This document shows positions 24,571 through 41,053 of a stretch of DNA of 42,722 nt, in pieces; position 1 is the stretch's first letter, and the number at the start of each line of letters is the position of its first letter. This DNA comes from Desulfobacterales bacterium. GTDB taxonomy: Bacteria > Desulfobacterota > Desulfobacteria > Desulfobacterales > C00003060. The DNA lies in the NCBI GenBank assembly GCA_030616475.1, contig JAUWXF010000016.1:1-42722 (forward strand), written 5' to 3'. The translations under genes and the position numbers were made by a program. The notes under the pieces are model-generated. The model saw only the letters and a list, made by a program, of their open reading frames with translations, did not search any database and was not told the DNA's origin.

Positions 24571-24984
24571 CTACGTGATTTCGGCCGCTTTGGCCGCACG
24601 GATGCGTGCTTCTTGTTCGGCCTTTCTCTTATAGGCCTGGTTGATCTTGGAGACGAGTTCATCGGTGTCACACGGTTTTCTGAGACAATCGTAGGCACCA
24701 ACCTTCATTGCCTCAATACCCGACTCCCGGGAGGCATGGCCGGTCAACATGATGACTTCTGTCAGGGGCTTTAGCTTCTTGATCTCGCTAAGGGTCTCGA
24801 TCCCGTCAATACCCGGCATGAGAATATCAAGGATGACCACGTCGAAATCGTAATCCGTGACCTTTTTAAGGGCCTCTTCACCGCTCAAGCACGTTGTCAC
24901 ATCATACTGGCGGTTTATCAGGCGCTTGGAAAGATATTCCAGAAACATCTCTTCATCATCGACAAGCAATAGCCTGGGCTTCAT
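24571..24984 (-). CDS. Stand-alone receiver, likely partner of the adjacent sigma54 activator
   Basis: 137 residues. Receiver residues D9-D10, D53 (VVILDILMPGIDG), T81 (IMLTGHAS) and K103 (CLRKPCD) are complete, followed by a helical basic tail (QAYKRKAEQEARIRAAKAAE). The sequence is of the kind normally fused to NtrC-type activators (IMLTGHAS, GAYDCLRKP). Here it is a separate gene 48 nt downstream of a sigma54 activator that has no receiver. It is closely similar to the receiver at 27405 (both LLVDDEE..LEYLSKRL). The ATG at 24984 has AAGGAGG upstream. The likely job is to carry the phosphate signal for the activator or for the nearby kinases; contact with the activator is inferred from position. 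Confidence 0.9.
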   Translation of the reverse strand: MKPRLLLVDDEEMFLEYLSKRLINRQYDVTTCLSGEEALKKVTDYDFDVVILDILMPGIDGIETLSEIKKLKPLTEVIMLTGHASRESGIEAMKVGAYDCLRKPCDTDELVSKINQAYKRKAEQEARIRAAKAAEIT

Positions 24985-25032
24985 CTTCGCGCCTCCTTTT
25001 GAGAGCCATACCAATTTCTCAGGCCCAAGACT

Positions 25033-26100: not shown

Positions 26101-26308
26101 TATTGATCCCTCCCTTCTGTGGTCGCCTCAAATACCATGCCATGATAGAAGCGGCCTGAAAAGCCACATGGGTAGCGGGGTATCCTCTTCATATTTGATG
26201 GGTAATCGGTCACGGAGTATTGGAAACAAAGAGCATTCATCCAGCCTACCACATAATTTGAGGAAGATACGTCATGGGCTTAGAACTTTTCCTTCTATCA
26301 TAGGAAAC

Positions 26309-26322
26309 GGCAAAAAAATGTC
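26309..26322. promoter_or_regulatory. Upstream activator site A of the first sigma54 promoter
   Basis: GGCA-AAAAAA-TGTC, one mismatch from the palindrome GGCA-N6-TGCC. It lies exactly 40 nt (start to start) from site B at 26349, the same distance as between the two sites at 29447 and 29487. Confidence 0.6.
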
Positions 26323-26348
26323 AACAATTATTTTGTGCTGTTGATGTC

Positions 26349-26362
26349 GGCAGAAATTTGCC
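26349..26362. promoter_or_regulatory. Upstream activator site B of the first sigma54 promoter
   Basis: GGCA-GAAATT-TGCC, a perfect half-site pair; with flanks CGGCA/TGCCG. It ends 90 nt before the -24 element at 26453. Confidence 0.65.
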
Positions 26363-26452
26363 GCTTTGTTGGATCATAGAGTTTCTTTAAGGTCCACAGA
26401 TAAGTGCTGCGAAATCAACACGTTAGTAAATCCCTTGTTGCCTGCGCGGCTC

Positions 26453-26468
26453 TGGCACATGACTTGCT
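26453..26468 (+). promoter_or_regulatory. Sigma54 promoter ahead of the CBS/receiver/kinase genes
   Basis: TGGCACATGACTTGCT: GG at -24 and GC at -12 with ten bases between, nearly the full consensus. The expected start is near 26479. An AAGGAG follows at about 26505 but no start codon fits it; the sequence switches there into a repeat block. Confidence 0.8.
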
Positions 26469-26514
26469 TGATCATCGTGCGAACGGGTAGTATATCCGGA
26501 CCCGAAGGAGAACT

Positions 26515-26690
26515 TAGGGGCTGCGCCCCAATTGGCCTGCCCTGACGCACACATCAATGTATAAGCACATAGACTATTAGCCAGGCCCGCCCTGGCGCTA
26601 CGTGCTGAAATTAGTCTATCAGGCCTATAATCCCGGTCTGGGCCAGGGTCTGGGCCAGGGAGTACTGGAGTGATGGAGTACTCCCTGTGA
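26515..26690. repeat. Repeat block in the leader of the CBS gene
   Basis: Hairpin GGGGC-TGC-GCCCC (26517-26529), then GCCTGCCCTGACGC, GCCCGCCCTGGCGCTAC, CCGGTCTGGGCCAGGG with a second GTCTGGGCCAGGG, and AGTACTGGAGTGATGGAGTA (26664 onward). It occupies much of the ~330 nt between the sigma54 promoter and the CBS start codon. No gene is seen in 26101-26800. Confidence 0.7.
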
Positions 26691-26800
26691 ATAGCACAAA
26701 TAGGTTGGTAAAAAAGCCTATAATTTCATTACGTTGTACAATTTCCGAGACGTTTAATTACCGTTTCCAAAGATAACGATGCAAGGCGAATCCGGACGAA

Positions 26801-27271
26801 ATGCCTGAAAAAAGAATAAAAGACTTACTGCTTGAGCTGGGCTCTCTTCAACGCATATCGCCCCACACAAAGGTGGCAGACGCGGTCAAGATGCTAGACG
26901 AGAAACGGCAGAGTAGATTTCCATCGTTCTTGCTGGTGGTTGACGAGGTGGAGAAGAACGAAGAGATCCTGGGCATGCTTTCGGTTAATGATATCCTTGG
27001 TCATATGGAACCTTCTACGGAGTCGATGGAAGAACTTCCGATTTTTTGGCAGGGTCAGTTCCGGGAGGAATGCGAGGCCATACTGGAGAGGCCAACCGGC
27101 GAAATCATGTCACCTGTGACCCATGTGATTCATCAAAGTGGTACACTCATGGAAGCTGTACATCTCATGAATTCTGTGAGGATCGACTGGCTCCCCGTGG
27201 TAGAAGGCGAAGACGTAGTAGGGATCCTTTTTAAAGAGAATCTGTTCAGCGAACTCGTTGCGGCAACCTAA
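26801..27271 (+). CDS. CBS-domain pair protein
   Basis: 156 residues. First CBS motif: RISPHTKVADAVKMLDEKRQ, then SFLLVVDE and EEILGMLSVNDIL. Second: EIMSPVTHVIHQSGTLMEAV, then IDWLPVVEGEDVVGILFKEN. A longer linker with acidic and aromatic residues (MEELPIFWQGQFREECEA) connects them. Stand-alone CBS pairs bind adenosine nucleotides and pass energy or redox state to a partner. The first motif resembles those of sensors that work with signalling proteins, and the gene is followed by a receiver and a kinase and preceded by a sigma54 promoter. The ATG at 26801 has only a weak AAGGCG well upstream. Confidence 0.85.
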   Translation: MPEKRIKDLLLELGSLQRISPHTKVADAVKMLDEKRQSRFPSFLLVVDEVEKNEEILGMLSVNDILGHMEPSTESMEELPIFWQGQFREECEAILERPTGEIMSPVTHVIHQSGTLMEAVHLMNSVRIDWLPVVEGEDVVGILFKENLFSELVAAT

Positions 27272-27291
27272 CCCGGGGTTGGTAGATTTCC

Positions 27292-27320
27292 TTGACAATT
27301 GAGCAAGAAAATACTAAATG
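27292..27320 (+). promoter_or_regulatory. Possible sigma70 promoter ahead of the receiver gene
   Basis: TTGACA (27292-27297), 17 nt, TAAATG. The -35 is perfect and the -10 is poor. The receiver ATG is 85 nt downstream. Confidence 0.3.
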
Positions 27321-27404
27321 GAGTGTGGTCGTCAGGGTTTTCGGCTGTCAATCTTTTTAACCACGAGCCTATGAAGGCTTAATACCAACCCCAAGGAGGA
27401 ACCT

Positions 27405-27899
27405 ATGAACGATCAGCCAAACATTCGAGTTCTTTTGGTAGACGATGAGGAAACTTTGCTTGAATACCTGTCCAAGCGGCTTTTGAAGCAACGGTTCACC
27501 GTGAAGAGCACCTTTTCTGGTGAAGAGGCTATTGAGGCGGCAAAAGAAGAGCATTATGATGTAGCGGTTGTGGATCTCAAGATGCCCGGGATAGATGGGG
27601 TAGAGACCCAAAGGAGACTCAGGGAAATCCAGCCCTTCCTTCAGTGCATCGTATTGACGGGCTATGCCTCCGTAGATACGGCATTAGAAAGTGGCCAACT
27701 GGATGCTTTTCAGTATCTCAGCAAGCCAGTTGATTACGATAATCTTGTGGCCATCATCAAAGATGCCTATAAGAAGAGGATGGAGATACAGGGGAGCAAG
27801 TTCAAAGAACAAGTGGAGGAAATCTATAGAGCAGGGCTGGGTAAGCGCGGGATGAGAAGGGCGATTGGTGAGCTGCATAAAATCTATGGAGTCGAATAG
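27405..27899 (+). CDS. Stand-alone receiver protein with helical C-terminal tail
   Basis: 164 residues. Receiver residues D13-D14, D57 (VAVVDLKMPGIDG), T85 (IVLTGYAS) and K107 (YLSKPVD) are present. The last 40 residues form a basic helical tail without a known DNA-binding motif. The sequence is closely related to the receiver at 24571, and both resemble receivers of NtrC-type regulators. The ATG at 27405 has a strong AAGGAGG upstream. The 3' end overlaps the following PAS kinase by 14 nt, a clear kinase/receiver pair. A possible output is the receiver-less sigma54 activator encoded nearby on the other strand, through protein contact. Confidence 0.92.
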   Translation: MNDQPNIRVLLVDDEETLLEYLSKRLLKQRFTVKSTFSGEEAIEAAKEEHYDVAVVDLKMPGIDGVETQRRLREIQPFLQCIVLTGYASVDTALESGQLDAFQYLSKPVDYDNLVAIIKDAYKKRMEIQGSKFKEQVEEIYRAGLGKRGMRRAIGELHKIYGVE

Positions 27900-29040
27900 T
27901 TCACTGTTAGCCGAACTTAAGAAACTCACCAGGGACCTGGCCAGCCACAAGATAGAGTTAGAGCAAGCCAGAGGGTACCTCCAGTGCATTTTGCAGAATT
28001 CCACGGACATGATCTTTGCCACAGACGTGGACGGAATTCTGCTTTCTTTTAGCAAAGGGGGCGAAAAGGTGCTTGGCTATTCCTGGGAAGAGGTAGCGGG
28101 CAGGCGCATCAATGATTTTGCCGAAGATCCTGTATCATTTGGGCATTTTATGGCCTCTTCCCAGGAAGAGGGAAGCGCCGTGGCTCTCGACGTCCACTTC
28201 CAGCACAAAGAAGGAAAAACGATTCATTGTCATGCCTCCTTGATGAGCCTGACTAACAGAGAAGGCCAAAGGGTTGGTACTGTAGGGGTCTGCCGGGATA
28301 TTACCCTATGGAAAAAACTCCAGGATGACCTCATCCAGGTTGACAGGCTGGCAGAGATAGGTCGTATAGCCGCTGGAGTGGCTCACGAGATCAACAATCC
28401 TCTCGCAGTTATTAATGAGGCGTCTGGTTGGGCAGGGGAGGTTGTTGGCGATGCCAGGGGCCTGAGCTCCGATGACCGCAGGGAACTGGAGGAATCCATA
28501 GAAAAGATTAGCGCTCACACCAGGCGCTGTAGTAACATTACCCACAAACTTCTGGACTTTGCCCGCGATTCAGCTACGACCAAAAGAGAGTTCGACATCC
28601 ACGAAGTACTCAAAGAGACGATCGATTTTCTCACTCCTGAACTGAAACATACCTCCATTGAAATCGACTTCAATTTTGCCGGGGGGCCTCTTTCTGTGAA
28701 CTCGGACCCAAGATTGTTGGAGCAGGTTTTTGTGAACTTCATTACGAATGCCATTCACGCTGTACTAGAAAAAGGGGGAGGCGAGAGACGCATTGAGATA
28801 CGAACGATCAAGACCAACTCAGAGGCCGAGATAAGCGTCAAAGATAACGGTGTGGGAATCCCTGAGGAAGCTCAGGCAAAGATATTTGATCTCTTTTATA
28901 CCACGAAGCCCCCGGGGAAGGGGACAGGCCTGGGACTTTCTATCTGCCAGAACATTGTTAGAAAGCTCGAAGGAGATATCAGTTTTGAGAGCAAGGCGGG
29001 TGTCGGAAGCACCTTCACCGTTCGAATTCCTATCTCCTGA
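27886..29040 (+). CDS. PAS-domain histidine kinase
   Basis: 384 residues from ATG at 27886, overlapping the previous receiver gene. A short N-terminal coiled-coil (LLAELKKLTRDLASHKIELE) is followed by a PAS domain (ILQNSTDMIFATDVDGILLS to VGVCRDITLWKKLQ). Then come the H-box GVAHEINNPLAVINEAS, the N box NFITNAIHAVLEKGG, DNGVGIPEEAQAKIFDLFYT and [14 protein letters not shown]. No membrane segment, so the sensor is cytoplasmic. The layout is that of NtrB-like kinases that work with sigma54-dependent systems. Its partner is most likely the overlapping receiver. Downstream 29041-29446 holds hairpins and repeats only, for example CGACGCTCTGCGTCGG and GGGCGACATAAAGTCGCCC. Confidence 0.93.
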   Translation: MESNSSLLAELKKLTRDLASHKIELEQARGYLQCILQNSTDMIFATDVDGILLSFSKGGEKVLGYSWEEVAGRRINDFAEDPVSFGHFMASSQEEGSAVALDVHFQHKEGKTIHCHASLMSLTNREGQRVGTVGVCRDITLWKKLQDDLIQVDRLAEIGRIAAGVAHEINNPLAVINEASGWAGEVVGDARGLSSDDRRELEESIEKISAHTRRCSNITHKLLDFARDSATTKREFDIHEVLKETIDFLTPELKHTSIEIDFNFAGGPLSVNSDPRLLEQVFVNFITNAIHAVLEKGGGERRIEIRTIKTNSEAEISVKDNGVGIPEEAQAKIFDLFYTTKPPGKGTGLGLSICQNIVRKLEGDISFESKAGVGSTFTVRIPIS

Positions 29041-29440
29041 AAGAAAGACAAAGCTCCTGGCGGGCGACATAAAGTCGCCCCTACAATTATTCGATCACAC
29101 ATCCATACCCCGTAGCGTGCCCCCTGGCCCAGACCGGGCTTCCTTCTGGTTCCGACGCTCTGCGTCGGAACCCAATCCGCTAGACGCTCTGCGTCTGTCA
29201 TAGCGCTACTAACCCCACCCAAACCCTCCCCTCTCCGAGGCGTAGGCCTCCGGCCGGTAGGGCCTACGCCCCCGGAGGGCTCTACGACCGGAGGCCTTCA
29301 AGCTGGTCCTTACCCATAAGAATTCATTTCCTGTAGGGGCGAGTTTGCCTCGCCCGAATTCTAAAACACATCGCTCCCGGACCATGGGTGATCTGTCTCT
29401 CGCGGTCGACTGGCTTGTGGGTAAGCTGGCTTAAAGAGAA
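29041..29440. repeat. Non-coding stretch of hairpins and dispersed words
   Basis: GGGCGACATAAAGTCGCCC, CCTGGCCCAGACCGGG (29125), CGACGCTCTGCGTCGG, GACGCTCTGCGTC, and the pair GGCCTCCGG.../...CCGGAGGCC around 29245-29300. No gene found here. The stretch separates the kinase from the antiporter promoter. Confidence 0.6.
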
Positions 29441-29446
29441 TCAACC

Positions 29447-29460
29447 GGCAAAAAAATGCC
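29447..29460. promoter_or_regulatory. Upstream activator site A of the antiporter promoter
   Basis: GGCA-AAAAAA-TGCC, a perfect palindrome. It lies 40 nt (start to start) from site B, the same as for the pair at 26309/26349. Confidence 0.7.
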
Positions 29461-29486
29461 AAAGGCTATTTTACGCTCACCTATTT

Positions 29487-29500
29487 GGCATGAATATGCC
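29487..29500. promoter_or_regulatory. Upstream activator site B of the antiporter promoter
   Basis: GGCA-TGAATA-TGCC followed by GCTTTT, as in the copy at 26349 (GCTTTG). It ends 91 nt before the -24 element. Confidence 0.7.
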
Positions 29501-29591
29501 GCTTTTCAAAAACCTTGACTCTCGGGCTGTCTCAGAAAAAAAGCTGTAAAATCAACCTGTTATAAGAATAATAGCTCGCTGAATAAGATTC

Positions 29592-29607
29592 TGGCATATC
29601 AATTGCT
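29592..29607 (+). promoter_or_regulatory. Sigma54 promoter of the Mrp/Mbh-type antiporter operon
   Basis: TGGCATATCAATTGCT: GG and GC elements with ten bases between. The expected start near 29618 leaves a leader of about 29 nt before the ATG at 29647. Confidence 0.8.
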
Positions 29608-29646: not shown

Positions 29647-30255
29647 ATGTGGAAAAGGGAGAGCCACCTTTTGGATAAAAAAGAGCAAAAAAATCTGCGG
29701 ACTGGGGACCTGGGGAACAGCAACAAGGGCCGACCAGCTATCGAGAATCCTCAAAGCAGAAGACTCTTCTTTTACCCTTTTTTCCTTACCTTCATTATCA
29801 TGTGCGGTACCTGGGTTGTGCTCTCGGGCAAGTTTGATCCCTTTCATCTCAGCCTCGGGCTCATCTCTTGTGGAATCGTTGCCTACCTTTCGTGTGACCT
29901 GCTGTTTCCTTCCCCTAAAATAAGGGGGCTTTTGGGTCAGTGGGCCCGGTTCGCCCGGTATATCCCATGGCTGATGTGCGAGATCATCAAGGCGAATCTT
30001 CACGTGACCTACCTGGTCTTCCATCCGAGGATGATGGAGCTGATCGACCCAAAAATCGTCAAATTTCGAAGCAAGCTAGAAAGTGACTTAGCTCTGGTGA
30101 CCTTTGCCAATTCAATCACACTCACCCCTGGCACCATTACCGTTAGTGTATCGATTGATGGGGACTTCAAGGTCCATGCCATTGACAAGGCGTCCGGTGA
30201 TCCCTTGCCGGGCGCGATGGAAGCAAACATTGCCAAAGCATTTGGTGAGGTCTGA
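29647..30255 (+). CDS. mrpE: Na+/H+ antiporter subunit MrpE
   Basis: 202 residues. A polar N-terminus of about 38 residues is longer than usual. Two or three membrane segments follow (FFLTFIIMCGTWVVLSG, LGLISCGIVAYLSCDLLF), then the MnhE signature region IPWLMCEIIKANLHVTYLVF and LVTFANSITLTPGTITVSVS with HAIDKA. MrpE (MbhA in the archaeal hydrogenase naming) is a small subunit of the multi-subunit cation/proton antiporter. The gene is first in the operon, 40 nt after the sigma54 promoter. Its TGA overlaps the ATG of mrpF. An ATG start at 29647 has GCGGG upstream; a downstream Met would lose the first membrane segment. Confidence 0.9.
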   Translation: MWKRESHLLDKKEQKNLRTGDLGNSNKGRPAIENPQSRRLFFYPFFLTFIIMCGTWVVLSGKFDPFHLSLGLISCGIVAYLSCDLLFPSPKIRGLLGQWARFARYIPWLMCEIIKANLHVTYLVFHPRMMELIDPKIVKFRSKLESDLALVTFANSITLTPGTITVSVSIDGDFKVHAIDKASGDPLPGAMEANIAKAFGEV

Positions 30256-30548
30256 TGGACAACGTCTTTTTGTATTCGGGTCTTTACCTGGCTTTTTTGA
30301 TGCTCCTTTCTTTGTATCGCCCCCTGTTTGGGCCGACGGTCGTGGACCGCATGATCGGCGTCAATGCCATAGGGAGCAAGACCACGGTGCTGCTGATCCT
30401 GATCGGCCTTATCTTCCATCGGGTGGAGATGTTCGTGGACATTGCCCTGGCTTACGCCATGTTGAACTTTCTCGCGGTCCTGGCGGCTTCAAGGTACTTT
30501 CAAAAGCGTAAGGGGTTGTACGATGAAGCGCTGTTCGGTAAAGATTGA
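30255..30548 (+). CDS. mrpF: Na+/H+ antiporter subunit MrpF
   Basis: 97 residues with three membrane segments. The family motif GPTVVDRMIGVNAIGSK is followed by HRVEMFVDIALAYAMLNFLAVLA. Typical MrpF/MbhB length. The start overlaps the mrpE stop (TGATG), so translation is coupled. MrpF is an integral subunit of the inner-membrane antiporter and related to parts of the complex that carry no redox centre. The short ATTGATG repeat follows before mrpG. Confidence 0.93.
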   Translation: MDNVFLYSGLYLAFLMLLSLYRPLFGPTVVDRMIGVNAIGSKTTVLLILIGLIFHRVEMFVDIALAYAMLNFLAVLAASRYFQKRKGLYDEALFGKD

Positions 30549-30598
30549 TGATTGATGATTGATGATTGAAACAATCAACAATCGACAATCAACTTGGG
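30545..30598. repeat. Tandem ATTGATG words with inverted arm
   Basis: GATTGATGATTGATGATTGA is followed by CAATCAACAATCGACAATCA, its imperfect reverse complement. It fills the mrpF-mrpG gap up to the ribosome binding site GGGAGG. The same words recur at 38586-38652 and 40962-41036. Confidence 0.7.
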
Positions 30599-30610
30599 AG
30601 GTTGTGACGG

Positions 30611-30934
30611 ATGGACATAATCGTATGCCTGCTTTTGTTTGCCGGGCTCTTTTTCTTTACTGGCGGTGCTGTGGGGATCCTCCGTTTTCCTGATTTTTAT
30701 TCCAGGCTGCATCCGGCCGGCAAACTCGACACGCTGGGCTTGCTGTTGGCGCTGATAGGCCTTGCCCTATTTAACCTTCATCATTTTTCTCTGGGCACCT
30801 TGCTGACCAGCCTGAAGATTATCCTTATCGCAGTATTTGTTTTCCTGGCTAGCCCCACGGCCACCCACGCTATAGTGGATGCCGGGGTAAGGGCCGGCCT
30901 GGCTCCCTGGACCAAGGGAGAGAAAAGGAGATAG
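30611..30934 (+). CDS. mrpG: Na+/H+ antiporter subunit MrpG
   Basis: 107 residues with three membrane segments. The family signature is GILRFPDFYSRLHPAGKLDT, followed by GLLLALIGLAL and SPTATHAIVDAG. Length fits MrpG/MbhC. ATG at 30611 with GGGAGG upstream. The next gene starts four bases after the stop, so they are on one message. In Mrp and Mbh complexes this subunit sits between MrpF and the DUF4040 subunit, as here. Confidence 0.93.
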   Translation: MDIIVCLLLFAGLFFFTGGAVGILRFPDFYSRLHPAGKLDTLGLLLALIGLALFNLHHFSLGTLLTSLKIILIAVFVFLASPTATHAIVDAGVRAGLAPWTKGEKRR

Positions 30935-30937
30935 CCT

Positions 30938-31183
30938 ATGATCTGGCAGTTGGATTTGGCCATTCTCACTTTGGTCGTCATAGCCGGTATTGGGGCCATT
31001 ACCGTCAAGGATCTCCTGGGTGCGGCTATCCTTTTTGGGGCTTACAGTTTCATGATGTGCCTGCTCTGGTCCATCATGGGGGCGGTGGATGTCTCCTTTA
31101 CCGAAGCTACGGTCGGCGCGGGTGCCAGTACGGTTTTTTTCGTTGCGGCTGTTTTCCGCACCACAAGGAGGACAAAGGATTGA
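30938..31183 (+). CDS. Antiporter subunit with DUF4040 (MbhD-like, MrpA C-terminal part)
   Basis: 81 residues with two or three membrane segments: AILTLVVIAGIGAITVKDLL, AAILFGAYSFMMCLLWSIMG and the motif AVDVSFTEATVGAGASTVFF. This is the DUF4040 domain that in classical Mrp systems forms the C-terminal part of the large MrpA protein, and in archaeal Mbh-type complexes is the separate subunit MbhD. Its separate state here points to the Mbh-type arrangement. The TGA overlaps the TTG start of the next gene. Confidence 0.88.
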   Translation: MIWQLDLAILTLVVIAGIGAITVKDLLGAAILFGAYSFMMCLLWSIMGAVDVSFTEATVGAGASTVFFVAAVFRTTRRTKD

Positions 31184-32010
31184 AGATCATAGGACTCATC
31201 GTAGCGGTTTTAACGGGTGCGCTGTTGATTTACGGCACAGTCGATTTTCCAGGGTGGGCAGACCCGGCCTCTCCTGCCAGCACGCATCTTTCTCCTCACT
31301 TTATTGAAAAGACCATGGAGGAAACTTCCGTGCCCAACATCGTCACCGCAGTCCTTGCCGACTATCGCAGTTATGACACCATGTTTGAAACCACTGTGAT
31401 TTTCTCGGGCGGGGTCGCCTGTTTTATTCTCCTGCGAATCTTTCGGCGCAAAGAGCCTTCAGATCGACTCTATCGGCATGTTCTTACCGGAGCGACCATA
31501 CGTGTCAAAGAAGGCGGGAAGATACCTCTCGATTCGGACGACTTTGAAAGGATCGATACCCTGTGGACCCCGCACGATTTGATCATCAAGACGGTTTGCC
31601 GGTTGCTGATCCCCTTTATCCAGCTTTTTGGCCTGTACGTGATTGCCCATGGGCACCACAGCCCTGGTGGGGGGTTTCAGGGCGGCGTGATCCTGGGAGC
31701 CAGCATCATGTTGCTTGCTATCTCCCAGGATCTGAGAACGGCTGTTCAACGGATGCGCGAAAAGGTGGATGCCCTCCTTTCTCCCACCGGTGTCTTTATC
31801 TATGCGGGTACTGGAGCGTTGTGTCTGCTGTTGGGGCTTAATTTTATGGATTACAGTGCGCTTGCGTCCGTGCTTTATGTCGATCCGGTTACCGCGCGAT
31901 CCCACGGCATTCTCATTGTAGAGATCGGTGTGGGAATTGCCGTCATGGCCACCATAATTTGGATTTATAACAATCTCTCATCTGCGGGCAAGTATGATGA
32001 AGGATTATAA
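31180..32010 (+). CDS. MbhE-MnhB fusion subunit of the antiporter
   Basis: 276 residues. The first part (KIIGLIVAVLTGALLIYGTV, then NIVTAVLADYRSYDTMFETT and VIFSGGVACFILL) matches the MbhE segment that in MrpA is C-terminal. The second part (RLLIPFIQLFGLYVIAHGHH, then SPGGGFQGGVILGASIMLLA) is the MnhB/MrpB domain, with its HGHxSPGGGFQGG motif. The fusion is common in bacterial Mbh-like operons. The TTG start at 31180 overlaps the previous stop by four bases and has AAGGAGG eight bases upstream, so it is chosen over any later codon. A 420-bp repeat block separates this gene from mrpC. Confidence 0.88.
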   Translation: MKIIGLIVAVLTGALLIYGTVDFPGWADPASPASTHLSPHFIEKTMEETSVPNIVTAVLADYRSYDTMFETTVIFSGGVACFILLRIFRRKEPSDRLYRHVLTGATIRVKEGGKIPLDSDDFERIDTLWTPHDLIIKTVCRLLIPFIQLFGLYVIAHGHHSPGGGFQGGVILGASIMLLAISQDLRTAVQRMREKVDALLSPTGVFIYAGTGALCLLLGLNFMDYSALASVLYVDPVTARSHGILIVEIGVGIAVMATIIWIYNNLSSAGKYDEGL

Positions 32011-32429
32011 ACAACAGTGAACTAAAGTGCCTAAAGCCCGCCCTGGCGCTACCTGCTTAGATTAATTTACTAAGCCCATAATCCCGGTCTGGGCCAGGGT
32101 GAGCTAAAGTGCCTAAAATTCAAATAAAGAAATGGTTGAAGTCCTAAAGTACGAAGCACGAAATCCCTGGCCCAGACCTGGAGTACAGACGCCATAGCCT
32201 TTTACAGTCATGTCGCGCCAGGGCGGGCCGAAGCACGAAACAATATCAAATGACAGAAATTCAAATGTCCAAAACGTTTTCGTGAAGCGATTGATAATGG
32301 CCCGAAGGCTATCACAAAGGTTCTATCCAGGATTTCGAAATTCGGGTTTTCGATTTGGCCACGACCGAAGGCACCTTTGGCAACTTTAGACACTTTAGCT
32401 CACTTTAGGCACTTATCTTGGGGTATCTT
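32011..32429. repeat. Repeat block inserted inside the antiporter operon
   Basis: Outer arms: AACTAAAGTGCCTAAAG (32023) and its inverse CTTTAGCTCACTTTAGGCAC (about 32394-32412), with a further GCTAAAGTGCCTAAAATTC at 32103. Inside: GCCCGCCCTGGCGCTACC, CCGGTCTGGGCCAGGG, CCTGGCCCAGACCTGG (32166), CGCGCCAGGGCGGGCC (32214) and AT-rich arms (ACGAAACAATATCAAATGAC). No gene. Confidence 0.75.
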
Positions 32430-32825
32430 ATGTCTGATTTGATGCAAATGCTTGTCGCCAAATATAATTACTGGATCTATATCACCTTAATGATGATTGG
32501 CCTGTATGCCATGATCGCCAAGAACAATCTGGTCAAAAAGATCGTGGGCATGAGTATCTTTCAGACAGCAATCATCTTGTTTTACGTGTCCACGGGCGCC
32601 AAGAAAGGGGCCACCATTCCGATCATAGAGCATGGCCATGGCGCGGAGACTCACGTAGTGCATGCTGTGGACTATATAAATCCGTTGCCTCATGTGCTGA
32701 TGCTGACCGCCATCGTGGTGGCCGTGGCTACCCTTGGGGTGGCCCTGGCCTTGGCTATAAGAGTCTATAACCGGTACAACACCCTTGAAGAAGATGAAAT
32801 CTTAGCGCAGATAAGGGAAAAATGA
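32430..32825 (+). CDS. mrpC: Na+/H+ antiporter subunit MrpC (NuoK-like)
   Basis: 131 residues from ATG at 32430. Three membrane segments: YWIYITLMMIGLYAMIAKNN, KIVGMSIFQTAIILFYVST and HVLMLTAIVVAVATLGVALA. These match the NuoK-like MrpC/MbhG fold, including the NLVKKIVG loop. A His-rich loop (IIEHGHGAETHVVHAVDY) lies between the second and third segments. The stop overlaps the next start by four bases (ATGA). GGGG precedes the ATG by five bases. The gene is directly downstream of the repeat block, so it may depend on readthrough from the sigma54 promoter. Confidence 0.92.
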   Translation: MSDLMQMLVAKYNYWIYITLMMIGLYAMIAKNNLVKKIVGMSIFQTAIILFYVSTGAKKGATIPIIEHGHGAETHVVHAVDYINPLPHVLMLTAIVVAVATLGVALALAIRVYNRYNTLEEDEILAQIREK

Positions 32826-34318
32826 GCCAACAGTATCCCGCACTTCTTGTCGTCGTTCCGCTGCTGTCGGCCCTTGTCATCTGTGGGGCCGGATGGGTGA
32901 ACAAGAGACTCTGTTTTCCGATTGCGGTTGCTGCCCTGGGGGTGGCGGCCTATTCGTGCATTGGCCTGCTATTGAGGGTCCTGGATGAAGGGGTGATTGT
33001 TTACAAATTGGGCGGATGGGACCCGCCAATGGGCATTGCCTACTATGTGGATCATCTCAATGGGCTGGTTCTGGTGGTGGTGTCGGTAGTTGCTCTCCTT
33101 AATTTGATAGCAAGCAAAAAGAGTATTGACCAGGAGTTTCCGGACAAGATAGGTCCGTTCTATACATTATATGTCCTTATGGTTACAGGACTTTTGGGTA
33201 TCGTGGTCACCGGAGATGCTTTTAACCTGTATGTGTTGCTGGAAATTGCGGCCCTCACCGGTTACGGCTTGCTTGCCATGGGGGAGGACCGTGCTCCCCT
33301 GGCGGCCCTCAATTATTTATACATGGGTACCATTGGGGCCTGCTTTTATCTGTTGGGCGTTGGGTATCTTTATATTGTCACCGGTTCATTGAATATGGTG
33401 GATATTGCCAGGATATTGCCCCCCCTTTATCAGTCCAAGGCCGTGCTGGGTGCTTTTATTATCTGTATGGTCGGGGTTTGGCTCAAGATGGCCTTCTTTC
33501 CCCTGCATGCCTGGCTGCCCAATGCCTACACATACGCCCCCTCTGCGGCCAGCAGTTTGATTGCCCCTCTGGTGACCAAGGTGATGATTTACGTGATGAT
33601 CCGCCTCATGTTGACTGTCTTCACCCCGGAATTTGCCTTTACCACCCTGGCAGTGAGCGACTCTATTGTCTGGCTTGCCGTCATTGCCATTGTCATGGGC
33701 GCCATCCTTGCTCTGACAGAGCGCAATTTAAAGAAGATGTTAACCTACATCGTTGTTGCAGAAGTGGGCTATATGGTTGGCGGCGCATGGCTTGGAAACC
33801 GCGCAGGAATGACCGGAGCGATCCTCCATATTGTAAACGACGCCCTCATGACCTTGTGCGTGTTCCTGGTCGCAGGCAACATTGTCTATAAGCTCAAGGG
33901 ATATGCCTTTGATGATCTCAAGGGTTTGTATCGAAAGATGCCGTTTACCATGACGGCCTTTACGGTAGGGGTTTTATCAATGATAGGCGTTCCTCCGACC
34001 TGTGGTTTTTTCAGCAAGTGGTACCTGATCTTAGGTGCTATCCGGGCAGAGCACTGGGTCTTCATGGGCGCGCTCCTTTTTTCCAGTTTAGTAAATGCCG
34101 TCCTATTTTTCAGGATAATCGAAATAGCCTTCTTTGAGCCTTTTACGGATCATCACGCTCACGGGCACGATCACCAACCGGAACCGATTGACGAGGCACC
34201 GCTCTCAATGGTGGTTCCCCTCTGGATCGTTGCTGCAGCCCTGGTCATAGTCGGTATTTACACGAGTGATATCGTAACAAAGATTATTCAATTTGCCATA
34301 CCAGAAGGCATTCTATGA
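32822..34318 (+). CDS. mrpD: Antiporter subunit D (MrpD/MbhH, NuoL/M/N family)
   Basis: 498 residues, about 14 membrane segments. Key antiporter positions are visible: the TM5 Glu in NLYVLLEIAALTGYGL and the TM7 Lys in GVWLKMAFFPLHAWLPNAYT. TKVMIYVMIR follows, and later lysines in LTERNLKKMLTYIVVAEVGY. The C-terminal loop is His-rich (DHHAHGHDHQPEP). This subunit moves H+ in exchange for Na+ in Mrp, and is the ion pump part of Mbh and complex I. It starts at the overlap with mrpC (ATGA), so both are coupled. It is the first of three homologous subunits in a row. Confidence 0.92.
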   Translation: MSQQYPALLVVVPLLSALVICGAGWVNKRLCFPIAVAALGVAAYSCIGLLLRVLDEGVIVYKLGGWDPPMGIAYYVDHLNGLVLVVVSVVALLNLIASKKSIDQEFPDKIGPFYTLYVLMVTGLLGIVVTGDAFNLYVLLEIAALTGYGLLAMGEDRAPLAALNYLYMGTIGACFYLLGVGYLYIVTGSLNMVDIARILPPLYQSKAVLGAFIICMVGVWLKMAFFPLHAWLPNAYTYAPSAASSLIAPLVTKVMIYVMIRLMLTVFTPEFAFTTLAVSDSIVWLAVIAIVMGAILALTERNLKKMLTYIVVAEVGYMVGGAWLGNRAGMTGAILHIVNDALMTLCVFLVAGNIVYKLKGYAFDDLKGLYRKMPFTMTAFTVGVLSMIGVPPTCGFFSKWYLILGAIRAEHWVFMGALLFSSLVNAVLFFRIIEIAFFEPFTDHHAHGHDHQPEPIDEAPLSMVVPLWIVAAALVIVGIYTSDIVTKIIQFAIPEGIL

Positions 34319-34339
34319 CGGAGATGGAATAAGGATCAT

Positions 34340-35809
34340 ATGGAAACGATTACATCAATAAAGCCCTTACTGGCTGTCCTGGCCTCACTGTTGGTCGTTC
34401 CGATTCTGGTTACAAGCACCAGAATGCCGAATGTCCGTGAAGCCTGGACCTTTGTGGCGGCAACTGTAAAGTTTTTGATCGTTCTATCCATGCTTCCGAC
34501 CGTCCTGAAAGGGACCGAGATCGTATATACGGTCGCTGAGGTCATCCCGGGGCTTGCAATCAAGTTCAGGGTTGATGCATTTGGCATGCTCTTTGCGCTG
34601 GTCTCTTCTTCCCTCTGGATCATCACATCTGCATACTCGATCGGCTATATGAGAGGTCTGAAAGAACACAGCCAGACCCGGTATTTCTGCTACTTTGCCA
34701 TCTGCCTTTCAGCAACCGTTGGTGTGGCCTTTTCAGCAAACCTGCTGACCCTTTATCTCTTTTATGAAATGCTTTCTTTAGCCACCTATCCCCTGGTCAC
34801 ACACCATCAGGACCCTGAGGCGCGCAAGTCCGGGCGTAAGTATCTTCTCTATATACTTGGTACATCCATAGCATTTGTTCTTCCGGCAATGCTGATATCT
34901 TACAACCTGGCGGGCACCCTGGAATTTGCAAAGCAGGGTTTCTTGGCCGGAACCGCGTCTAAGCCCTTAATCCTGTTCCTTCTAATCCTGCTCGTTTTCG
35001 GGTTTGCCAAGGTTGCTATTATGCCTTTTCATTCGTGGCTTCCCGCAGCCATGGTAGCGCCCACGCCGGTCAGTGCCTTGTTGCATGCGGTGGCCGTTGT
35101 GAAGGTTGGCGCCTTTAGCATCCTTCGCATGATAACGGGGGTCTTTGGAACAGACCTGTTGCTGGATCTTCATCTTGGTACCCTGGTTTGCTATGCTGCT
35201 GCGTTTACCGTAATAGTGGCCTCACTCATTGCCCTTACCCAGGATGAACTAAAGCGACGTCTTGCGTTTTCAACCATCGGTCAACTGTCATATATTATAC
35301 TTGGGATTGCACTCCTTTCTCCCAAGGGGATGATCGGCGGCATGACCCACATCGCCATGCATGCCTTTGGCAAGATCACCCTCTTTTTTTGTGCAGGCGC
35401 TATTGCTGTGGCCACGGGTAAGAAGTACGTCAGTCAAATGGTCGGTATAGGGAAAAGGATGCCGGTTACCATGATTGCCTTTTTCATTGGCTCCTTGAGC
35501 GTGATAGGGCTGCCGCCCACGGGCGGATTTTTCAGCAAGTGGTATCTTGTCCTGGGAACCCTCCAGGCCGATCAAATGCCTATGTTGTTAGTCCTTCTCG
35601 GAAGCTCGCTGCTAAATGCCGCATACTTTTTGCCCATTGTATATAAGGCCTTTTTCTGCACGCCGGAAGAGTCTATGTTTGAAAACAAAGTAGAAGAGGC
35701 CCCGATATGGTGCGTGGCGCCACTTGTGGTGACCGCAGTATGCTCTATCGTACTCTTTTTCTATCCTACGGTGTTTCTTAATTTAGCAACACTCGCCATA
35801 GGAAAATAG
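34340..35809 (+). CDS. Second NuoL/M/N-family antiporter subunit
   Basis: 489 residues, about 14 membrane segments, homologous to the previous gene. The Glu lies in LYLFYEMLSLATYPLVTH and the TM7 Lys in FGFAKVAIMPFHSWLPAAMV. AVVKVGAFSILRM and KRRLAFSTIGQLSYIILGIA follow. All conserved charged residues of a functional H+ channel are there. The IVTSTRMPNVREAW N-terminus and overall length are like MrpD/NuoM. It begins 22 nt after the previous stop. A second full-length copy is more than a canonical Mrp operon needs (one MrpA and one MrpD). Confidence 0.9.
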   Translation: METITSIKPLLAVLASLLVVPILVTSTRMPNVREAWTFVAATVKFLIVLSMLPTVLKGTEIVYTVAEVIPGLAIKFRVDAFGMLFALVSSSLWIITSAYSIGYMRGLKEHSQTRYFCYFAICLSATVGVAFSANLLTLYLFYEMLSLATYPLVTHHQDPEARKSGRKYLLYILGTSIAFVLPAMLISYNLAGTLEFAKQGFLAGTASKPLILFLLILLVFGFAKVAIMPFHSWLPAAMVAPTPVSALLHAVAVVKVGAFSILRMITGVFGTDLLLDLHLGTLVCYAAAFTVIVASLIALTQDELKRRLAFSTIGQLSYIILGIALLSPKGMIGGMTHIAMHAFGKITLFFCAGAIAVATGKKYVSQMVGIGKRMPVTMIAFFIGSLSVIGLPPTGGFFSKWYLVLGTLQADQMPMLLVLLGSSLLNAAYFLPIVYKAFFCTPEESMFENKVEEAPIWCVAPLVVTAVCSIVLFFYPTVFLNLATLAIGK

Positions 35810-35820
35810 GTTGGGAGACT

Positions 35821-36072
35821 ATGAAGCAAAAAAAAGAGTTCGACTGGTTTGACAGGCCTGAGAGCAAAAGAAAACTCTGGATCTGGCTGTACGCTTTTTG
35901 CGGCCTGCTGGTGGCAATTGATTTGTTTACCCACAGGCATGCGTACTTCGGGTTTGGCCATTATTTCGCATTCTATGCACTCCTCGGATTTGTCTCATGT
36001 GCAGTCCTGATACTCTTTTCCAAATTAGTGGGTCTATTCCTGAAGGCAAAAGAGGATTACTATGATAAGTGA
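35821..36072 (+). CDS. Small membrane protein in the antiporter operon
   Basis: 83 residues. The polar N-terminus MKQKKEFDWFDRPESKRK is followed by two membrane segments (LWIWLYAFCGLLVAIDLFTH and YFAFYALLGFVSCAVLILFS) and a short polar tail. I do not recognise the family. It sits 11 nt after one large subunit and overlaps the next by 11 nt, so it is almost certainly translated with them and may be a minor structural subunit. The start ATG is at 35821. Confidence 0.82.
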   Translation: MKQKKEFDWFDRPESKRKLWIWLYAFCGLLVAIDLFTHRHAYFGFGHYFAFYALLGFVSCAVLILFSKLVGLFLKAKEDYYDK

Positions 36073-37825
36073 TTTTCCGCCTGCAGCGATTTTGATACTC
36101 GGCGCGTTGCTGGTCCCTTTTTTCAAGGGAAAGGCCAAGAATTGGTATGTTATCCTGCTGCCTGCTGCCGCCTTTTACTTAATCTCCCAGCTCCAGGTCG
36201 GTTCTTCGTGGCAGGTTCATTTCTTTGGCTTTGACCTTACGTTTTTGAGGGTGGACAAACTCAGCAAGGTCTTTGGGTATATCTTTACCCTGAACGCGGT
36301 TGCGGCCTTTGTCTACGCCTTTTATCTCAAGGACAATACCCAGCATGTGGCCGCAGCCATTTATATAGGTAGCGCCCTGGGCGTTGTCTTTGCAGGCGAC
36401 CTGGTTTCCCTTTATTTCTTCTGGGAGGTTATGGCTGTTGCCTCCACCTTTCTTATCCTATCTCGAAAGACCAAAAAGGCCCAGGCAGCCGGCATGCGCT
36501 ACATTATGGTGCATATCTTCGGTGGCCTTTGCCTGCTGGCCGGCATGGTGATCTATATAACAGAGACCGGATCGATTGCCTTCAACGCGATGGCTGACCG
36601 GAACCTGGGGACCTATCTTATCCTAATCGGACTTTTGGTCAACGCTGCAGCGCCCCCCCTTCATGCCTGGCTCCCTGATGCGTATCCGGAGGCTACTGCG
36701 ACCGGAGGAGTGATCCTGAGCGCATATACCACAAAGACCGCGGTCTATACCCTGGTACGGGGTTTTCCCGGCTGGGAGATACTTATCGTGGTCGGGTGCA
36801 TCATGACCATATACGGTATTATATACGCCTTGTTGGAAAACGATATGCGGCGAATCCTCGCTTACAGCATCATCAACCAGGTCGGGTTCATGGTTTGTGG
36901 GGTGGGTATCGGGACCGCGATGTCCTTAAACGGCACCGTAGCCCATGCCTTCTGTCACATCATCTACAAGTCGCTTCTCTGGATGTCTGCCGGCTCTGTT
37001 CTGTATATGGTCGGAAAAAGCAAGTGCACCGACCTTGGAGGGCTGTACAAGACCATGCCATGGACCCTGATTTTTGGTGGTATTGGAGCCCTTTCCATAT
37101 CCTCGTTTCCCGCAACGAGCGGATTTACCAGCAAATCCCTTATCTTAGATGGCGCGATTCATGAACACCTAATGTGGGTCTGGCTTGTTTTAGAGGTGGC
37201 TTCTGCCGGCGTTTTTCTCCATGCGGGGATCAAGTTTCCCTACTTTGTCTTTTTCGCCAAGGATAAGGGGCTGAGGCCAGGGGAAACGAACAAAGGAATG
37301 CTCATCGCCATGGGCTTTATGGCTTTCATGTGCATCTTCCTTGGCCTTTATCCGCAGCCGCTCTATAATGTTTTGCCCCATGTAGTCCCCTACCAGGCTT
37401 ACACGTTCACCCATGTGATTGCACAGTTGCAACTGCTCATGCTCTCGGCCCTCGTCTTTTTCCTGTTTCTTAAGCTGCTTAAGCGAACAGAGACCATCTC
37501 CATTGACACGGATTGGTTCTACCGCAAAGGGGGCGGCCTCTTTTACTATGTCATGGACAAGGCCCTGAACGGTATAAACGGTGTCTCAGAACGGATCTTT
37601 GTGGGTGGTTTGGCTGGTTATCTTGGCCGTGTCTCCAGGGACGGTCCGACAAGAGCCGCACTCTTAGGCATGGTGCCTGCCTGGGCGATAGGCGGTGCAA
37701 AAGGAGAAAGACTGGCCATTAAGAAAGACAATGTCCGTACGGCCCTGCGGACAGGTACCTCACCTATTGGGATAACTGCGGCCATAGCAACCATTTTTCT
37801 GGTAGTAGTTTTTCTCTTGTTGTGA
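36062..37825 (+). CDS. Third NuoL/M/N-family antiporter subunit
   Basis: 587 residues, about 15-16 membrane segments. The Glu is in SLYFFWEVMAVASTFLI. The position of the TM7 Lys is different: the usual K is absent before the P-HAWLP motif (LLVNAAAPPLHAWLPDAYPE), and a Lys is found later in SAYTTKTAVYTLVR. LLENDMRRILAYSIINQVGF and HAFCHIIYKSLLWMSAGSVL are also conserved. The longer C-terminus ends in one more membrane segment after a soluble part (about residues 480-560). It overlaps the small protein before it. The subtype resembles hydrogenase-4/Mrp-like D subunits of Desulfobacterota. It closes the operon. Confidence 0.9.
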   Translation: MISDFPPAAILILGALLVPFFKGKAKNWYVILLPAAAFYLISQLQVGSSWQVHFFGFDLTFLRVDKLSKVFGYIFTLNAVAAFVYAFYLKDNTQHVAAAIYIGSALGVVFAGDLVSLYFFWEVMAVASTFLILSRKTKKAQAAGMRYIMVHIFGGLCLLAGMVIYITETGSIAFNAMADRNLGTYLILIGLLVNAAAPPLHAWLPDAYPEATATGGVILSAYTTKTAVYTLVRGFPGWEILIVVGCIMTIYGIIYALLENDMRRILAYSIINQVGFMVCGVGIGTAMSLNGTVAHAFCHIIYKSLLWMSAGSVLYMVGKSKCTDLGGLYKTMPWTLIFGGIGALSISSFPATSGFTSKSLILDGAIHEHLMWVWLVLEVASAGVFLHAGIKFPYFVFFAKDKGLRPGETNKGMLIAMGFMAFMCIFLGLYPQPLYNVLPHVVPYQAYTFTHVIAQLQLLMLSALVFFLFLKLLKRTETISIDTDWFYRKGGGLFYYVMDKALNGINGVSERIFVGGLAGYLGRVSRDGPTRAALLGMVPAWAIGGAKGERLAIKKDNVRTALRTGTSPIGITAAIATIFLVVVFLLL

Positions 37826-37900: not shown

Positions 37901-38002
37901 CAAAGCCCAAAGAGTAAAAATGCTGTGCTCCATGGTCTCTGCGCTGAGCGCCTTTTTGCTCCCCGTGAACGGGTACGATTCGGGCCTGGAGAGGAGATAT
38001 AT

Positions 38003-38485
38003 ATGGTTTCTGTAGAAGACTTGAGAAGGATCGTGCTGTTTGAGAATTTGACAGACGGGATGCTTGAACAGTTGCTCCCGATGGTTCAAACGGAATCCCT
38101 TGACGAAAGACAGATCATTTACGAAGCAGGCAATACGGCCGACCGTTTTTATTCACTGAAAAGGGGAAAGGTGCTGCTTGAGGCAGAACTTGCCCCGACC
38201 CTTATTATCTCTCTAGGTGCGATAAAGGCGGGATATTCTTTTGGCTGGTCTGCGCTCCTTCCTTCGGCATCCCACACCTCGTATGCTGTGTCCGCTGAAC
38301 CATCCGAAATATTTGTCATGCCAGGAGATAAGTTTTTGGCCCTCCTTGAGCGTAACAACGCCATCGGATACCTGGTTATGCAGAAGGCGGCCACAATTCT
38401 TGAAAACCGCCTGGAACGTCGAACAGCACAGTTCCTGAAGGTCATAACCAAACATCCTGAAATAGGAAGGCTTTTGGGCCTGTAA
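38003..38485 (+). CDS. Cyclic nucleotide-binding-domain protein without DNA-binding domain
   Basis: 160 residues from ATG at 38003 (GAGAGGAGA upstream). The cNMP-binding fold is visible: IVLFENLTDGMLEQLLPM, QIIYEAGNTADRFYSLKRGK, then LGAIKAGYSFGWSALLP in the phosphate cassette position and SEIFVMPGDKFLALLERN. The helix-turn-helix of Crp/Fnr regulators is missing. The cassette lacks the typical FGE-x-A-L-x-R with Arg, so the ligand may not be a cyclic nucleotide. It likely acts as a sensor by protein contact. It lies between the antiporter operon and a kinase operon. Confidence 0.87.
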   Translation: MVSVEDLRRIVLFENLTDGMLEQLLPMVQTESLDERQIIYEAGNTADRFYSLKRGKVLLEAELAPTLIISLGAIKAGYSFGWSALLPSASHTSYAVSAEPSEIFVMPGDKFLALLERNNAIGYLVMQKAATILENRLERRTAQFLKVITKHPEIGRLLGL

Positions 38486-38652
38486 GATGCCGGATCCGGG
38501 AGGCCTCCCTCGTTAACCTATCACCCCGTTTGGCCTCCTCCCTACGGGGCCTGAGACGTCACATGCGGGAGGCCTCCCACCTTATGTCGATTGTTGATTG
38601 TTGATCTATTTGTTTTATTCAGTTATCAATCGTCAGTTATCAATCGTCAATC
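38486..38652. repeat. GGGAGGCCTCCC palindromes and ATTGTTGATTG arms
   Basis: Two GGGAGGCCTCCC palindromes (about 38499-38510 and 38568-38579), then TCGATTGTTGATTGTTGATC with inverted CAATCGTCAGTTATCAATCG. The last part leads into the next kinase gene without a gap. Confidence 0.65.
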
Positions 38653-38672
38653 CCAGCTACAACTTGCATCTG

Positions 38673-39815
38673 ATGAAAATCAAGGCATCTGAAGAGAAAT
38701 ATCGCCTTCTGTTTGATTACGATCCGAATCCTATTTTTATGGTTGGTGTGGAATCGGCCAAAATCCTGGATGCGAACAAGCCGGCCAGTATGACATATCA
38801 ATATAACCGCGCAGAACTGTTGGAGATGTCCTTTCTCGAACTGTTTGATGCTGACGAGGCAGATCGACTCTGGAAACATCTTCATGACTTTGCCAGGGAG
38901 GACTCGGTCTTCATCCCCAAGCTACTGGCCAGGAGGAAGAACGGTGATTATTTCCATATCGATTTCCATGCCCGGTCCGGGAAATTTCAAGAAATAGAAA
39001 GTGGGGCATCTGGTCTCTCTTACATCATTACGACTATAGATATTACTGAACGTCTTGAACACGAGGCCCAGTTGACTCAGGCCAGCAAAATGGCTACACT
39101 CGGTGAGATGGCAACCGGTATTGCCCACGAACTCAATCAGCCCTTGAATGTAATCAGGGTTGGGGCCGATTTTCTTGCCAAGATAATAAAACGCGGGCAG
39201 AAGATCTCCGAGGAGCAGTTGTTGAAAGTGAGTAGCAACATAAGCGAGCAGGTAGACCGGGCCACCAACATCATCAATCACCTGCGGGAGTTTGGCCGAA
39301 AGAGCGAGTTGGAAGTATACCCGGTGGACCTTAATGAACCTATACGAGATGTATTTACTATCCTTGGGCAGCAGCTCAGATTGCGAAACATCGAAATAAG
39401 CCTGAGGCTGGACCAACCCCTCCCGAAGATTCTCGCTGACAAGAACCGCCTGGAACAGATCTTCCTGAACCTGGTAACCAATGCGAGAGATGCCATGGAG
39501 GCAAAGGGGCCGGAGGCGATCAAAAAGCTCACCATTACCACATATCAGGAAAGGGAGAGGGTGGTGGCTCTGGTCGCTGATACTGGCACGGGCATGTCGA
39601 AAGAAGTCCCCGAGAAAATATTTGAACCCTTTTTCACCACAAAAGAAGTGGGAAAGGGAACCGGCTTAGGACTGTCGATTACCTATGGCCTGGTTAAAGA
39701 TTTCAGGGGCGATATCAACGTAAAATTCACCTCACACATCGGCACGATATTCAGGATCAGTTTTCCGATCTATACAGACGAGGCTCACCAGGATGACAAA
39801 GCTTTTACTCATTGA
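38673..39815 (+). CDS. PAS-domain histidine kinase
   Basis: 380 residues from ATG at 38673. The PAS domain runs from [20 protein letters not shown] to [16 protein letters not shown]; then the H-box [21 protein letters not shown] box [34 protein letters not shown] and [14 protein letters not shown]. No membrane segment. The frame is open further upstream to 38598 but there it is repeat sequence, and no ribosome binding site marks the start. The text just before the ATG (SYNLHLM) resembles a linker, so the gene may have lost an N-terminal sensor at the repeat boundary. It overlaps the following receiver-kinase by 23 nt. Confidence 0.88.
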
Positions 39816-40983
39816 TGATGAACGGCCGATCCTGGAGGTGTTGGATCTTTCGCTTACCAGCGAAGGATATGAGGTGATCACCGCCGAAAGCGGCCATGAG
39901 GGTTTAAAAATCTTCGAGGAGGAAAACCTCAAGCTCGTACTAACCGACATCAAGATGCCCGGTATAGACGGCATAGATGTCCTCAAAAAAATCAAGGCTA
40001 TAGACAGCGAAGCCGAGGTAATTGTTGTAACTGGCCATGGAGACATGGACTCAGCCATAGCGGCGCTCCAGCACGGAGCTTCGGATTTTATTACCAAGCC
40101 GATACGGGACGAGGCCCTCATGCTGGCGCTGGAAAGGGCCGAGCGCAAGCTGTCTATGACCAAACAACTCAAGGACTATACTGAGAACTTGCAACAAATG
40201 GTGGAAAGACGTACCCTGGAGTTGAAGCAGGCACAGGAAGAATTGATAAGAAACGAACGTCTTGCCACAATCGGCGATACTGTGGCAGGACTGGCCCATT
40301 ACATTAAGAATATCTTGACCGGACTGCGCGGTGGTATGTATATGGTAAACACAGGCATGGCCAGGGATAAATCCTATATGCTGCAAGAGGGATGGGCCAT
40401 GGTCCAGCGCAATGTTGAGAAGGTCTCGGGCCTTGTCCTCGATCTTTTGAGATATTCCAGGGAGAGGACACCTGAACGAAGTGTATGCAGGCCCAACGAG
40501 ATTGTCTCGGAGGTAGTAGAACTCCTCAAGGACAGGGCTAAGGAACACCATATCGAGCTGAAAAAGGTCCTTGATGCTGATTTGAAAGAGGCATACCTGG
40601 ACCGGGATGGCATCCACAGGGTCCTGTTGAACCTGATCTCAAATGCTATTGACGCATGCATCTATGACACAGATACCTCTAAGGCCTGGAAGGTCACAGT
40701 AAAGACCATGCTGGCAACTGATGCCGGCTCAGGCGAAACCATCCTTTTTGAAGTAACTGACAATGGATGTGGGATGACCGATGAGGTGAAGGAAAAACTC
40801 TTTACCAAGTTCTTCAGTACCAAAGCTGGGCGGGGCACTGGACTGGGTCTGCTCAACACGCAAAAGATCATTTATGAACACGGCGGGGAAATCTCGGTGA
40901 AATCGAAGGTTGGGGAGGGGGCCACTTTTTCAGTTCGACTCAAGCGGGAGATGCTTGAGGAATTGACGATTGATGATTGTTGA
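39793..40983 (+). CDS. Receiver-histidine kinase (REC-HisKA-HATPase)
   Basis: 396 residues, ATG at 39793 inside the previous gene. The receiver has LIDDERP, phospho-Asp in LVLTDIKMPGIDG, T in VVTGHGD and K in FITKPIR. A coiled-coil linker (LKDYTENLQQMVERRTLELK) connects to an atypical H-box GLAHYIKNILTGLRGG. The usual E and the P of HExxNPL are replaced, giving HYIKNIL. N box NLISNAIDACIYD, DNGCGMTDEVKEKLFTKFFS and RGTGLGLLNTQKII follow. The unusual H-box belongs to a subgroup of kinases known from deltaproteobacteria. The last six residues (LTIDDC) come from the ATTGACGATTGATGATTG repeat. Confidence 0.9.
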   Translation: MTKLLLIDDERPILEVLDLSLTSEGYEVITAESGHEGLKIFEEENLKLVLTDIKMPGIDGIDVLKKIKAIDSEAEVIVVTGHGDMDSAIAALQHGASDFITKPIRDEALMLALERAERKLSMTKQLKDYTENLQQMVERRTLELKQAQEELIRNERLATIGDTVAGLAHYIKNILTGLRGGMYMVNTGMARDKSYMLQEGWAMVQRNVEKVSGLVLDLLRYSRERTPERSVCRPNEIVSEVVELLKDRAKEHHIELKKVLDADLKEAYLDRDGIHRVLLNLISNAIDACIYDTDTSKAWKVTVKTMLATDAGSGETILFEVTDNGCGMTDEVKEKLFTKFFSTKAGRGTGLGLLNTQKIIYEHGGEISVKSKVGEGATFSVRLKREMLEELTIDDC

Positions 40984-41036
40984 TTGTCAATTTTGTTTTG
41001 TTCAATCGTCAATCATCAATCGTCAATCATCAATCC
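40962..41036. repeat. ATTGATGATTG arms between kinase and receiver
   Basis: TTGACGATTGATGATTGTTG faces TTCAATCGTCAATCATCAAT and a second CGTCAATCATCAATCC. It forms an imperfect hairpin and contains the stop codon of the kinase. The same words occur at 30545 and 38586. Confidence 0.7.
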
Positions 41037-41053
41037 TAAAAAGGAGGGGAAAG

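Follow-up and report, generated by a model that had tools for sequence, protein, structure and literature searches.

Paired operators and σ54 promoters at two operons

The contig JAUWXF010000016.1 of a Desulfobacterales bacterium (assembly GCA_030616475.1), 42,722 nucleotides (nt) long and analysed whole as the window, carries a gene for a σ54 activator, EBP1, that is divergent from a small signalling operon, and an Mrp/Mbh-type antiporter operon further downstream (Table 1). σ54 directs a rare form of RNA polymerase, and both operons are preceded by a σ54 promoter with two GGCA-N6-TGCC palindromes upstream, spaced 40 nt apart in both cases. A first-pass annotation had placed near-consensus σ54 promoters at 26453 and 29592, 90 and 91 nt beyond paired palindromes with one mismatch among four sites; each of these coordinates and distances was recovered, and the mismatch lies in the distal site of the first promoter. 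It had overlooked four further features: an integration host factor (IHF)-type site between operators and promoter, the lack of a receiver domain on EBP1, a σ70 promoter of EBP1 within the distal site, and a sister module elsewhere in the genome.

Table 1. Coordinates of the regulatory elements and genes discussed, as positions in the window.
Feature	Position	Strand	Details
RRx, stand-alone receiver protein	24571..25014	-	PF00072 (3.8e-31); directly downstream of EBP1
EBP1, receiver-less σ54 activator, 355 aa	25033..26100	-	AAA+ (GESGTGKE, GAFTGA) and Fis-type helix-turn-helix (HTH)
σ70 promoter of EBP1	26297..26324	-	TTGACA-16-TATGAT; -35 box overlaps distal site
Distal activator site, first promoter	26309-26322		GGCAAAAAAATGTC; one mismatch to GGCA-N6-TGCC
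Proximal activator site, first promoter	26349-26362		GGCAGAAATTTGCC
IHF-type site	26413..26425	+	AATCAACACGTTA
σ54 promoter	26453..26468	+	TGGCACATGACTTGCT; -24/-12 type, TGGCAC-N5-TTGC; 90 nt after proximal site
CBS-domain protein	26801..27271	+	PF00571 (5.9e-14); first gene of signalling operon
Response regulator	27405..27899	+	PF00072; receiver and short C-terminal extension
PAS histidine kinase, AtoS-like	27865..29040	+	PF00512, PF02518, PF13426; best NCBIfam match AtoS
Distal activator site, antiporter promoter	29447-29460		GGCAAAAAAATGCC
Proximal activator site, antiporter promoter	29487-29500		GGCATGAATATGCC
IHF-type site	29550..29562	+	AATCAACCTGTTA
σ54 promoter	29592..29607	+	TGGCATATCAATTGCT; -24/-12 type, TGGCAC-N5-TTGC; 91 nt after proximal site
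Mrp/Mbh-type antiporter operon	29647..37825	+	MrpE, F, G, MbhD, MbhE-MnhB, C, three NuoL/M/N-like, one small protein

The shared geometry could in principle reflect chance, or recently duplicated non-functional DNA, and lone GGCA-N6-TGCC sites with one mismatch are indeed not significantly enriched in the window (27 observed vs 20 expected). However, the pairing itself, and the pairing with a promoter, are significant, as the first-pass annotation had supposed in calling the arrangement hard to explain by chance. When a gap of 20-32 was allowed between paired sites, only these two loci were found in the 3.79 Mb genome, and the same two were the only places where a proximal site accompanies a σ54 promoter (control 0 for both scans). 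Under the strict definition of the whole arrangement, in which a σ54 promoter follows two GGCA-N6-TGYC sites spaced by ~40 nt, an order-wide set of 389 genomes yielded 11 matches and the controls none. Every match belongs to this cluster, and together they come from 7 genomes of the genus. Furthermore, the elements are conserved within diverged spacers, and their spacing classes lie one helical turn apart. Chance is refuted at the level of sequence, and we give this explanation a practically negligible probability. A literature search returned no match for the GGCA-N6-TGCC motif.

Conservation of the putative switch across the genus

The genus comparison covered 22 genomes, that of the window (G000) and 21 others. 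EBP1 orthologs with 72-97% identity are present in 9 of the 21, and the switch is conserved in about half of the genus's species. All ten EBP1 genomes have the operator pair, located next to EBP1 or upstream of the CBS gene, of mrpE or of a response-regulator/kinase/Mrp cluster. Operators were kept despite gene rearrangement; in G014 and G012, EBP1 itself is divergent from mrpE. Among the 12 genomes without EBP1, the operator occurs in G010 only (Fisher p 3e-5 vs 10/10). The Mrp operons of G016, G009 and G021 (mrpE 74-78% identical) come without EBP1, operators or σ54 promoter, and a paralogous second Mrp operon in G012, G019, G006, G013 and G015 has no operators. This tracking of EBP1 by the sites, before orthologous operons in EBP1 genomes and not before the Mrp operons of the three genomes just named, supports the earlier proposal that the protein encoded at 25033 binds both regions and controls the antiporter.

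Spacing, promoters and IHF sites were compared in 19 regulatory regions extracted from the genus genomes, all of which contain the σ54 promoter. The distance from the end of the proximal site to the -24 element is 88-92 nt in 15 cases and 99-102 nt in four, two classes that differ by one helical turn, while the distance between the IHF site and the promoter is constant at 39-42 nt. The operator distances are in line with the placement of σ54 activator sites at about 100 nt or more upstream. A match to the IHF consensus WATCAANNNNTTR was found at that distance before the promoter in 17/19 regions, 14 of them exact. Between diverged species the elements are 92-96% identical (values somewhat inflated by partial ascertainment, the sites having been located by their own consensus), most spacer segments only 29-53%, with intermediate values for the N6/N5 bases inside the elements. 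The genome of the window also encodes rpoN (PF04552, two matches) and IHF/HU-family genes. Two off-pattern scan matches (G015:C28, G014:C145) are probably background, and a third (G011:C18) is an operator of the sister module described below.

The activator, its own promoter and its sister

Profiles for the AAA+ and Fis-type HTH domains (PF00158, 8.9e-68; PF25601; PF02954) bear out the first-pass reading of EBP1 as a σ54 activator encoded beside the first site, and the GAFTGA and Walker motifs are invariant across 10 EBP1 orthologs. No receiver domain was found on EBP1, whose σ54-activation domain begins at residue 22, so the protein is not of the NtrC type. The mismatch in the distal site, TGTC for TGCC, arises because these bases form the TTGACA -35 box of the divergent EBP1 promoter. 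TTGACA or TTGACG stands at the same distal-site position in 10/10 EBP1-adjacent operators, and TTGAC[AG] in 0/5 operators with a co-directional neighbour, which have TGCC instead; in G006, where the antiporter operator and RRx are divergent, the bases at this place read TCGACA. A -35 box inside the distal operator implies self-repression, and EBP1 is therefore predicted to repress its own synthesis.

There is precedent for this arrangement. The orp regulon of Desulfovibrio vulgaris, under the activator DVU2106, has divergent σ54 promoters, palindromic activator sites, and IHF sites that lie between the activator sites and the promoters, and its activator is made from a σ70 promoter that overlaps its own site, forming a negative loop (PMC3897727). 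The architecture described here is the same and also occurs in a sulfate reducer, with both the intervening IHF site and the σ70-operator overlap present, though the orp targets are orange-protein operons whereas one target here is a separate transport operon. The likeness is at the level of architecture. XylR of the TOL plasmid Pr-Ps-Pu system, which down-regulates its own promoter while activating the divergent Ps and the distant Pu (PMC3469447), likewise offers a precedent for a σ54 activator with negative autoregulation, but XylR has an aromatic-sensing domain and EBP1 has no input domain.

A second activator in the same genome, EBP2 (module at G000:C302:31089-31236, L196), is ~50% identical to EBP1 and likewise receiver-less, and the two form sister clades (100/100 support). 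EBP2 is divergent from an operon encoding a Na_sulph_symp/CitMHS-family (DASS) transporter and a CBS protein. The modules resemble each other in having a divergent activator, GGCA-N6-TGCC half-sites, an IHF-like site, a σ54 promoter, and CBS, receiver and kinase genes nearby. They differ in target operon and in spacing: the EBP2 operators are of the GGCAA-N4-TTGCC type and 20 nt apart, with the IHF-like site and σ54 promoter 97-100 nt downstream. This 20-nt layout occurs in 19/389 genomes from at least four families (control 0). The surroundings of EBP2 (G000:C302:25000-40000) also hold genes for PPDK-like proteins, TauE, receivers and a dCache kinase, the first two of which set this module apart.

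Since EBP2 belongs to a sister clade associated with GGCA-N6-TGCC half-sites and shares the window's genome with EBP1, the 40-nt pairs might be bound mainly by EBP2 or another GGCA-recognising activator, with EBP1 controlling something else. We consider this quite improbable. The 40-nt pairs track EBP1, which adjoins one in nearly every genome, whereas the EBP2-only genomes G002, G004, G005 and G021 lack the 40-nt layout. Base preference differs as well, with GGCAA-N4-TTGCC in the 20-nt sites and GGCAT in the proximal 40-nt sites. That half-site type follows activator subfamily supports the assignment of the 40-nt pairs to EBP1.

Because EBP1 lacks a receiver, its input would probably come in trans. 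RRx adjoins EBP1 in the same direction in seven genomes (G000, G020, G015, G019, G014, G013, G012) and is likely, to judge from this gene order, its regulatory partner; its best NCBIfam matches are NosR, a non-σ54 family, followed by the receivers of the σ54 regulators AtoC, GlrR, ZraR and NtrC. Alternatively, EBP1 may be constitutively active, so that only its amount matters, with RRx and the kinase acting on a different output. The missing N-terminal regulatory domain and the self-limiting σ70 promoter are compatible with this alternative, and receiver-less activators are known, such as PspF, which is under partner-protein control (PMC4641369). We nevertheless hold it to be the less probable case, as the presence of RRx beside EBP1 in seven genomes, and of receivers, a kinase and a CBS protein with EBP2 too, suggests signal input. 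D. vulgaris has receiver-less activators (DVU2894, DVU2956, DVU2989, DVUA0024) that resemble EBP1 in having no N-terminal domain, and for which partner proteins or cascades have been proposed; they differ in that no Mrp or other antiporter target is given for them (PMC4641369).

Proposed control of the Mrp antiporter

Our data suggest, with a probability of roughly 0.85, that receiver-less EBP1 binds both operator pairs, co-activates the signalling and Mrp operons through IHF and σ54, and limits its own level. EBP1 would occupy the two operators before each operon, and IHF would bend the DNA between operators and promoter, allowing an EBP1 hexamer to reach σ54 polymerase. Transcription by this polymerase would then start at about 26479 for the CBS/response-regulator/kinase operon and at about 29618 for the Mrp-type cation/H+ antiporter operon. 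Expression from a σ70 promoter with its -35 box in the distal operator would allow EBP1 to keep its level in check even as it activates its targets, and its activity would probably be set by RRx and/or the kinase/response-regulator pair. The switch very probably acts on the antiporter and on its own signalling genes at once, turning on both.

Besides the ascertainment in the conservation values, several observations weigh against this reading. In G014 and G012, the distal site at the CBS-side promoter is degenerate or missing and there is no clear IHF match. The σ70 -10 box is clear in only part of the species, and the case for RRx input consists of gene order and domain loss. EBP2, associated with near-identical half-sites, could act at the 40-nt pairs too. 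Finally, G010 has the operator but no detected EBP1; in this incomplete genome (85% complete), the operator pair and σ54 promoter (L163, G010:C584) precede a truncated mrpE, which may reflect an assembly gap or loss of EBP1.

The antiporter operon is complete in Mrp subunits (E, F, G, B, C and D-type), with MrpA split in Mbh fashion into MbhD and MbhE (PF01899, PF04066, PF03334, PF13244, PF20501/PF04039, PF00420, and PF00361 three times). An Mbh hydrogenase was ruled out, as no hydrogenase genes are present and the antiporter genes are followed by cyclic-nucleotide (cNMP)-binding and signalling genes. These downstream genes (37925-41485) encode a cNMP-binding protein, a PAS kinase, a receiver-kinase hybrid and another receiver, and relatives retain the cNMP and receiver genes beside Mrp even without EBP1. 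A 65-nt interspersed repeat is present in two copies with 86% identity, one in the CBS operon leader (26585-26649) and one within the Mrp operon (32036-32100). The second copy lies in a gap of ~400 nt separating the genes for subunits B and C; in relatives this gap is either far shorter or missing. The repeat may influence polarity or the length of the leader. Other near-identical interspersed repeats lie between unrelated genes at 6376-6523, 13418-13566, 2641-2696 and 3174-3208, and the 88- and 56-nt copies, rich in GGCAATGGCGGGCAGG, share 98-99% identity when the loci at 6.4 kb and 13.5 kb are compared. Further ion-transport genes upstream encode a PF03601 (UPF0324-type) membrane protein and a Na+/Ca2+-exchanger-family protein (10391-11845 and 8775-9785).

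Mrp antiporters are commonly viewed as salt/alkali or housekeeping machinery. In the mostly open-access literature searched, σ54 control of an Mrp operon was not found to be reported, and two papers on σ54 regulons, PMC4641369 among them, contain no mention of antiporters. The window's organism carries dsrA and is therefore likely a dissimilatory sulfate reducer. Mrp has been linked to sodium gradients in sulfate-reducing bacteria (PMC10553843), and Na+-coupled sulfate uptake by DASS proteins has been discussed for the same group (PMC5840216), making sodium economy a plausible common theme of the EBP1 and EBP2 modules. A more tentative and, we think, rather doubtful extension is a split NtrC, in which RRx controls EBP1 in trans and a shift in operator spacing after duplication (~two turns, 20 vs 40 nt) insulates the sister DASS and Mrp regulons, so that twin σ54 switches run the sodium economy.

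For a hitherto undescribed σ54 regulon of an uncultured sulfate reducer, our analysis assigns a regulator, its operators and its targets, of which an Mrp antiporter, predicted to be under σ54 control, is an unusual one. The sister modules, which share the same half-sites at spacings of 20 and 40 nt, provide a natural experiment on whether a difference in spacing is by itself enough to insulate σ54 activators after duplication.

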